Positions 14,649-19,082 of a DNA stretch of 56,714 nucleotides are shown in pieces; the stretch's first letter is position 1, and each line of letters opens with the position of its first letter. The stretch spans positions 1 to 56,714 of the forward strand of contig NZ_CALMFB010000005.1 of NCBI RefSeq assembly GCF_937863155.1. The letters are read 5' to 3'. The notes beneath the pieces were generated by a model. It had not been told where the DNA came from and searched no databases. It worked only from the letters and a program-made list of their open reading frames with translations. A program made the translations under genes and the position numbers. This DNA is from an uncultured Brevundimonas sp. (lineage in GTDB: Bacteria > Pseudomonadota > Alphaproteobacteria > Caulobacterales > Caulobacteraceae).

Positions 14649-14773
14649 GTCGCGGCTTTAGACATGCCGCCGCCATGCGCAATTGCGTGGGATTACGAGG
14701 TTCATTCGCCCGGCTGTGCCTGTAATGGTCAAGGCTGAACGGTTTGAGTCGAGATACGTCCGCCTTGGAGTCC

Positions 14774-15439
14774 ATGAACACGCGCCCGCCCCCAGCGCCC
14801 GATCCCGAAGCGGCGTCCATGACGCCGCCGCAGGCCGTTGTGGGTGAAGGTCTGGCGCTGCATGTCGCGGTGATCGACGACGACCCCGCCATCCTGCGAC
14901 TGACCACCATGATCCTGGAGGGGGCAGGGGTGCAGGTTACGCCGTTCGCCGATCCTCTGGACGCCCTGATGTGGGCCTCGGACGCGGAACCGACCTGCAT
15001 CATCGTGGATCTGAAGATCCCCGGCATCGAGGGGCTGGATCTGGTCAGCGCCTTCTGCGCCCTGCAACGCCACGCCGTGATCCTGCTCAGCGCCTATGTC
15101 GATGTGCTGACCACCGTGGACGCCATGCGCCTGGGCGTCGACAATGTGCTGCAGAAGCCGGTGGGCGAAGACGCGCTGGTCGCCGCCGTGCGTCGGGGCC
15201 GCGACATCCTGGTATCGACGGTCATGCCGGACACCCTGACCTTCACCCGCCGCGAGCGTCAGGTGGCCGAGCGGCTGGTGAACGGCCGCACCACCAAACA
15301 GATCGCCCTGGACCTGAACCTCAGCCCGCGCACGGTCGAGTTCTTCCGCGCCAGCCTGCTGCGGAAAACCCAGTCGCCCAACACTGCGGCCCTGGTCGCC
15401 GGCCTGTCGCGCATCGGGTTCATGCCGTCCGACAATTAG
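14774..15439 (+). CDS. FixJ/NarL-type response regulator
   Basis: This protein of 221 residues has an N-terminal receiver domain (~30-145): acidic pair IDDDP, phospho-acceptor Asp79 in IIVDLKIPG, Ser in LLSAY and Lys128 in QKPV. A LuxR-type helix-turn-helix (~160-215) contains FTRRERQVAERLVNG, TKQIALDLNLSPRTVEFF. It should be a phosphorylation-controlled transcription factor of the FixJ class. The ATG at 14774 follows TTGGAG; an upstream in-frame TTG lacks a site. No histidine kinase is in the window, so it is an orphan. It stops 11 bases before the first LexA box of the next transcription unit. Confidence 0.85.
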   Translation: MNTRPPPAPDPEAASMTPPQAVVGEGLALHVAVIDDDPAILRLTTMILEGAGVQVTPFADPLDALMWASDAEPTCIIVDLKIPGIEGLDLVSAFCALQRHAVILLSAYVDVLTTVDAMRLGVDNVLQKPVGEDALVAAVRRGRDILVSTVMPDTLTFTRRERQVAERLVNGRTTKQIALDLNLSPRTVEFFRASLLRKTQSPNTAALVAGLSRIGFMPSDN

Positions 15440-15443
15440 GCGC

Positions 15444-15472
15444 TTGACGGGAACATAGGTGGAACATAGAAC
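15444..15472 (+). promoter_or_regulatory. sigma70-like promoter of sidA-dnaE
   Basis: TTGACG (15444-15449) and TAGAAC (15467-15472) are separated by 17 bases, close to the housekeeping consensus. The spacer and the -10 element are covered by the two LexA boxes, as expected for a repressed SOS promoter. Confidence 0.65.
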
Positions 15473-15483
15473 ATTCCCAGAAC
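15451..15483 (+). promoter_or_regulatory. tandem LexA (SOS) boxes
   Basis: Two exact matches to the alphaproteobacterial LexA motif GTTC-N7-GTTC, written here as GAAC-N7-GAAC, lie at 15451-15465 and 15469-15483. They are three bases apart with an 18-base centre spacing. The second ends 21 bases before the sidA-like ATG. Confidence 0.85.
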
Positions 15484-15504
15484 AAACAGTCTGGGGATAA
15501 GGCC

Positions 15505-15590
15505 ATGTCGCGTTGGGTTCGGGACCTGCTGTCGCTTGCGTCGTGCGGCGGCTTTGTCTGGATGGTGTGGCAGGCGGCGCTGCTGGCGCA

Positions 15591-15594
<4 letters not shown>
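15505..15594 (+). CDS. sidA: 29-residue membrane peptide, SidA-like SOS cell-division inhibitor
   Basis: The ATG at 15505, preceded by GGGGATAAGG, opens a 29-codon frame ending TGA at 15592-15594. That stop overlaps the dnaE ATG by four bases (ATGA). The peptide starts MSRWVRDLL and is then one hydrophobic helix ([18 protein letters not shown]) with a basic N-terminus, so N-in single-pass membrane insertion is expected. Caulobacter SidA is described as a 29-residue, LexA-controlled inner-membrane peptide that blocks division by acting on FtsW/FtsN. Identical length, membrane character and double LexA control make this a probable orthologue. Sequence identity to the Caulobacter peptide was not checked. 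Confidence 0.75.

Positions 15595-19081
<3,487 letters not shown>

Positions 19082-19082
<1 letters not shown>

Follow-up and report, generated by a model that had tools for sequence, protein, structure and literature searches.

The window, that is, the whole stretch of 56,714 nucleotides of Brevundimonas DNA analysed here, carries on its plus strand the gene for the replicative DNA polymerase III alpha subunit, dnaE (15591-19082), whose 1163-residue product shows the Pfam PHP, DNA_pol3_alpha, finger, HHH_6 and OB domains. Two other DnaE-family proteins of the same genome are 30-32% identical to it. Directly ahead, on the same strand, lies an open reading frame of 29 codons and a TGA stop (15505-15594), which starts with ATG and which conservation, profile matches and pN/pS lead us to treat as the sidA orthologue of this genome. 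Its stop codon and the start codon of dnaE overlap in the sequence ATGA (15591-15594, plus strand), and both the 29-codon frame and the overlap are exactly as a sequence-only reading of this DNA had described them. The predicted peptide has a short basic N-terminus followed by one hydrophobic helix, as judged from its sequence. The same reading credited the frame with a good ribosome-binding site; a Shine-Dalgarno-like GGGGA is indeed present on the plus strand (15493-15497), 7 nt before the ATG, but we would call it fair rather than strong.

Upstream of the frame we read a promoter in which TTGACGG, box 1, ATA and box 2 follow one another. TTGACGG (15444-15450, plus strand) would be the -35 element, and the first LexA box, GTTCCACCTATGTTC (15451-15465, minus strand), occupies the promoter spacer. 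The second, GTTCTGGGAATGTTC (15469-15483, minus strand), starts 18 bp after the first, and the -10-like CATAGAAC (15465-15472, plus strand) sits at their junction, between and overlapping both boxes, and is probably the -10 element. With an exact box defined as GAAC-N7-GAAC (GTTCN7GTTC on the minus strand), both are exact matches, so that the two LexA boxes claimed earlier for this position are confirmed. We regard them as putative LexA operators of the sidA promoter; LexA bound to box 1 would lie over the spacer, and LexA bound to box 2 over the start region. The fit of the promoter was judged against what we take to be the Caulobacter housekeeping consensus, and an E. coli-type promoter scan found no promoter at this place. 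A gene for a LuxR-type response regulator (14744-15439) lies on the same strand upstream of the promoter.

Three exact boxes were observed in the window against 1.2 expected, so the number of boxes alone is not unusual. The third (1811-1825), possibly a chance occurrence, is far from sidA and stands ahead of an open reading frame (1897-2616) that looks glutathione transferase-like by eye. The whole genome, 77 contigs totalling 2.79 Mb, has 109 copies of the exact motif and 22 of the reversed pattern; its own lexA has an exact box roughly 70 nt upstream of the start. No exact box was found within 400 nt before the RecA-domain match of the genome, which indicates that the exact definition misses some expected SOS genes here.

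Coding selection and relation to Caulobacter SidA

Matches to sidA were found at E<1e-4 in 126 of 131 genomes of the genus, its own included, and at E<=10 in 127. Four of the five remaining genomes (G068, G074, G108 and G111) gave only distant DnaE-family matches, and in these the sidA-dnaE locus is probably unassembled. The fifth, G050, keeps dnaE, and the frame ahead of it is, by eye, diverged and broken by a shift, which may be a mutation or an assembly error, since the sequence fits either. Absence of the frame from relatives, named by the sequence-only reading as the observation that would speak against a gene, is therefore not what the genus shows. Among 156 distinct sidA coding sequences (1888 pairs at 75-97% identity), pooled pN/pS was 0.32 in frame, and the two alternative frames gave 1.0 and 2.5. 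In the 25 comparisons listed with the window peptide, one (L041) was near 1 and the other 24 were 0.51 or less. Length is also kept: 98 of 129 distinct peptides of the Caulobacteraceae have 29 residues, and all have 28-31.

The LexA boxes accompany the gene. In all 168 distinct 120-nt Caulobacteraceae upstream regions there is a box with at most one mismatch, which is exact in 115. Paired boxes, each with at most one mismatch and starting 18 bp apart, occur in 123/168, by far the commonest spacing (the next being 28). All 123 regions paired at 18 bp have TTG no more than 14 nt ahead of box 1, a raw count given without a chance level, and ATA or ATG precedes GAAC in 18 of the 21 paired-box regions listed. 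Conservation in 126/131 genomes, frame-specific pN/pS and a LexA box in 168/168 upstream regions place the frame far beyond chance, and the open reading frame at 15505-15594 is a protein-coding gene.

The earlier reading had likened the peptide to Caulobacter SidA in length and character, and profile comparisons bear this out. The NCBIfam SidA model NF033228 (29 positions), an equivalog model with a curated cut-off of 35 bits, matches residues 1-27 at E 2.9e-5 with 23.9 bits; the peptide falls below the threshold and does not reach equivalog status, so that this model alone would not name it SidA. A Pfam search of the peptide returned no real match, the best being PsaJ at E 0.18. At E<=1 the SidA model matches in 190 of 199 Caulobacteraceae genomes, 118 of them above the cut-off, and in 7 of 14 named control genomes, unrelated species included, so that weak matches mean little; one of these seven, presumably Caulobacter vibrioides, lies above the cut-off. 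When seven Brevundimonas-type peptides were compared with six Caulobacter-type peptides by hhalign, the probability was 96.8% over 28 columns with no gap. In the alignment with Caulobacter SidA, which had been proposed as a check, the window peptide is 41% identical to the Caulobacter row. From these comparisons we judge the window peptide to be homologous to SidA, and the open reading frame to be a diverged SidA orthologue whose score stays under the level set for annotation. The likeness claimed earlier was thus right, and understated, in that the frame is the diverged orthologue itself rather than a similar new gene.

SidA of Caulobacter crescentus (CCNA_02004, PMC11034885; model NF033228) is a 29-residue inner-membrane protein that acts as the main SOS-induced division inhibitor and binds FtsW (PMC4211646), and Caulobacter cells without lexA are described as filamenting owing to SidA (PMC12700426). 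Like the window gene, it encodes 29 residues with one membrane helix, has a LexA box upstream and, in the C. vibrioides loci, stands directly before dnaE; the two peptides are homologous over 27-28 residues by the comparisons above. They differ in the core, ALVSVxxFVWMMC in Caulobacter SidA and a different one in the window peptide, and in the junction with dnaE, which is an overlap in the window and a short gap in the Caulobacter loci listed. DidA of C. crescentus is also a damage-induced division inhibitor with a single helix, but it has 71 residues and is SOS-independent (PMC4211646). YneA of Bacillus and SosA of Staphylococcus are SOS-induced division inhibitors, and YneA also acts on FtsW (PMC13396833, PMC6851548); they belong to another phylum and are analogous only, likened here by description.

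Linkage of sidA to dnaE in the Caulobacteraceae

For 80 loci, which are named as Caulobacteraceae genera or MAGs and include Phenylobacterium and many Brevundimonas, DnaE was the sole means of retrieval. A SidA-type open reading frame precedes dnaE in 79 of them; the sequence of the 80th opens at a contig edge, only 42 bases ahead of its match. Among the 79 are Caulobacter vibrioides DSM 9893 (L168) and OR37 (L173), and consequently the published sidA also stands before dnaE. In the full set of 216 dnaE-bearing family loci, many of them redundant, 209 carry a SidA-type frame of 28-31 codons within 420 nt before the dnaE match. Since 122 of the 216 were fetched via a sidA match, this count is no measure of the gene's frequency, and 79/80 is the unbiased figure. 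In the seven others the frame is further away (L012), broken (L135), absent (L137, L139, L147) or at a contig edge (L148, L171). The link to dnaE that the earlier reading proposed for an SOS division checkpoint holds as far as gene position goes, without being a speciality of this genome.

The ATGA overlap, with residue 1 of dnaE aligned at that place, occurs in seven loci, the window's own (L004) and six others. In many congeners tens to hundreds of nucleotides separate sidA from dnaE (some 385 nt in L012), which means that tight coupling is no general rule. In the window, the overlap leaves a separate dnaE promoter no space other than upstream of the boxes or within sidA, and the supply of basal DnaE without SidA in undamaged cells then needs explaining. 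In Caulobacter dnaE is CC1926 (PMC1839093), and it is listed among genes reported as SOS-regulated in C. crescentus (PMC3323433, section 8). We found no statement that sidA and dnaE are neighbours in the literature searched, passages of PMC9578287 included. The arrangement points to a single transcription unit behind both the division checkpoint and the SOS control reported for dnaE (PMC3323433).

Absences within the family were followed in 24 genomes picked for no or weak SidA match and then checked for dnaE. Fourteen had a dnaE1-level match (in G131 cut at a contig edge) and ten had only distant DnaE-family matches, so many of the sidA gaps are assembly gaps. The 13 with readable upstream DNA comprised nine genomes of one genus (g14) with a diverged peptide, three with none, and the broken frame of G050 (L135). 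The g14 peptides (L136, L138, L140-L146) have HN replacing the R-D/E pair and give weak or nil scores with NF033228, and in the g14 regions L136 and L144 two LexA-like boxes are kept in the degenerate form GAAC-N7-GAAT. At L137 and L139 (genus g17) and L147 (g16), dnaE has neither an exact LexA box nor a SidA-type frame before it.

Eight weak or second matches away from dnaE (L106-L113) were opened as candidate second sidA copies. Seven of them are chance frames, three (L109, L112, L113) being one recurring site, and no exact LexA box was found within 400 nt before any of the eight. The remaining one (L111, 1971-2084, minus strand, in genome G151) is a SidA-like open reading frame of 37 residues, MTRLIRETLAFAAAATFVWAVCVGALVVGDLFRSLPA, which overlaps the end of the preceding gene and matches the SidA model at E 9.6e-6 in that genome. 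Its closest other match among the 199 family genomes (68%) lies at the SidA place of G278. A second copy linked to dnaE was also seen at L105, in a 66%-complete assembly (G053).

Proposed action and alternative explanations

From the reading frame with its coding selection, its homology to SidA, the operator sequences and the synteny, we infer LexA repression, co-transcription, membrane topology and the FtsW target. The reading that we prefer, and to which we assign a probability of roughly 0.87, is that the open reading frame is the SidA orthologue of this Brevundimonas, a LexA-controlled, FtsW-binding division brake whose messenger is probably common with dnaE. Each of the tandem operators would be occupied by LexA, the first within the promoter spacer and the second covering the -10 together with the start region. 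On DNA damage RecA would be activated, LexA cleaved and the 29-residue peptide made, and the peptide would insert in the inner membrane as a single N-in helix. There, in analogy to SidA of Caulobacter, it would bind the late divisome through FtsW and stall constriction until the damage is cleared; arrest of division through FtsW by the Brevundimonas peptide is proposed because size, layout, operator type and place are the same as in Caulobacter SidA, which makes the same action the best inference. As the sidA stop overlaps the dnaE start, dnaE would probably be on the same messenger and translationally coupled, and a replacement polymerase and the division brake would then be induced together.

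The overlap could also be read in another way, with the short frame acting as a leader peptide, or as a device that couples its translation to that of dnaE, so that its translation matters and the peptide does not. Short frames before dnaE recur in other lineages (see below), and ribosome profiling of Sinorhizobium meliloti found a translated sORF25 in the dnaE1 5'-UTR, which is discussed by its finders among possible upstream open reading frames and which, by description alone, resembles the window sidA as a translated short frame before dnaE1 (PMC10117765). We consider a leader peptide improbable, given that the amino-acid sequence is under purifying selection, that a gap separates sidA from dnaE in most of the relatives listed, and that a function in its own right has been published for the Caulobacter orthologue. 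A peptide that depolarises the membrane, in the manner of TisB or DinQ, rather than inhibiting the divisome is less probable still. TisB is similar in size, in its SOS control and in having a single helix. The same likenesses hold for DinQ (PMC3567139), and against both stands the direct homology of the window peptide to SidA in the NF033228 and hhalign comparisons. Finally, a TTG start at 15513 would give a dnaE frame of 1189 residues, and the short frame might then be part of a longer DnaE N-terminus, or simply a chance frame in GC-rich DNA. Many relatives have a dnaE start well downstream of a separate sidA, and we give these two explanations almost no weight, both being refuted by the conservation in 126/131 genomes and by pN/pS in the frame of sidA.

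LexA boxes and short frames before dnaE in other families

Outside the Caulobacteraceae, the SidA profile found nothing convincing in a 249-genome sample of the order, its best match there (E 0.005) lying inside a frame of 567 residues, and relatives outside the family were consequently exposed only by a positional test. A scan upstream of dnaE in other Caulobacterales had been suggested with the original claim, and it was productive: an exact LexA box followed by a frame of 22-45 codons with a hydrophobic helix precedes dnaE in 17 of 28 genomes, from four other families, where shuffled sequence gives 0.0 expected. None was found in the six genomes of family f2 that were read (L306, L307, L312-L314 and L316), which have neither an exact box nor a SidA-type frame there, nor in two loci of family f3 (L292 and L297).

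The class-wide search found dnaE in 139 of 144 genomes and, with two Brevundimonas and nine others left out, gave 128 dnaE upstream regions. In the first 88 of these there were 23 with an exact box (1.25 expected) and 15 with a box and a helix frame (0.02 expected); in all 128 the counts were 25, within 600 nt, and 16. Among 551 control windows, 37 had a box and none had a box with a helix frame. When one mismatch in the box was allowed, no class locus was gained and 6 of the 551 control windows matched. With GAAC-oriented boxes only and up to 60 codons, criteria for which control figures exist only with an HMM added, 17 of the 128 class loci were positive (L424 dropping out, L341 and L345 coming in), and none was found at the other 111. 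The 17 loci fall in 13 families. Five of these families were sampled twice, and four have a peptide in both genomes; in the fifth (f20) one genome has it and the stretch of the other (L417) breaks off where its contig ends. An HMM trained on the picks together with SidA found, at 10 bits, 17/128 class, 20/28 order and 0/551 control regions, of which only the control count is independent, as the model was trained on the class and order picks. Control counts were 0, 1, 4 and 13 of 551 at 10, 8, 6 and 4 bits, respectively.

Several observations bear on what these wider peptides are. In 13 pairs of related order or class frames, pN/pS was 0.03 to 0.48 (pooled 0.23), and by this measure the frames look like genes, although several pairs have a sequence in common and are not independent. 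An alignment of all 35 peptides shows D or E at the same N-side place of the helix in 31, preceded by K, R or Q in 24, and tryptophan is frequent in the second half. The choice of starts favoured ATG with a match to AGGAGG, and the ATG and Shine-Dalgarno features are for this reason no evidence. A first alignment of 22 peptides was hand-picked, and the profile test was repeated with all 35 automatic picks. Against the SidA profile the 35 peptides as a group score 33.4, whereas none of 60 column-shuffled controls exceeds 14.1; the class peptides by themselves score 28.1 against a shuffled maximum of 14.9, and the order peptides 29.2 against 14.4. The null for these group scores consists of composition-keeping shuffles, without real unrelated membrane peptides. 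Taken singly, 11 of 29 peptides exceed their own shuffles at p<0.05. One peptide, in family f13, is close to SidA by eye; trimmed to RWFQDIAALASVAAMGWTVLLW, it reaches 17.6 bits against the SidA profile and outscores every one of its 300 shuffles. Homology of the wider peptides to SidA appears likely from these profiles, and stays short of proof because of the single-peptide result and the composition of the null. Ten of the wider peptides searched against NCBIfam gave no match, and against Pfam none beyond one at E 0.046. In the literature searched, from which most subscription journals were excluded, we found no SidA-type peptide described outside Caulobacter.

Taken alone, the window gene is a further SidA; the recurrence of a LexA-controlled micro-frame before dnaE in scattered lineages of the class is what deserves more attention. 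We think it more probable than not that the alphaproteobacteria have an old and so far unannotated family of LexA-controlled SOS division brakes of 25-47 residues, each with a single helix and placed before dnaE, of which SidA would be the branch in the Caulobacteraceae. If so, the LexA box attributed to dnaE would be the promoter of the brake, brake and polymerase would be induced as one unit, and many lineages with no known SOS division brake would have one. Because inhibitors of this kind are short and change quickly in evolution, searches by sequence miss them. A search by position (LexA box, micro-frame, dnaE) instead of sequence recovers a SidA-type peptide at 79/80 family loci and candidates in 13 further families, and these candidates are testable genes for how alphaproteobacteria besides Caulobacter halt division after DNA damage.

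Where the window has the response-regulator gene, several of the order and class loci have the end of an ATPase gene that we take, by its look, to be lolD, and in f2 this presumed lolD runs almost to dnaE.
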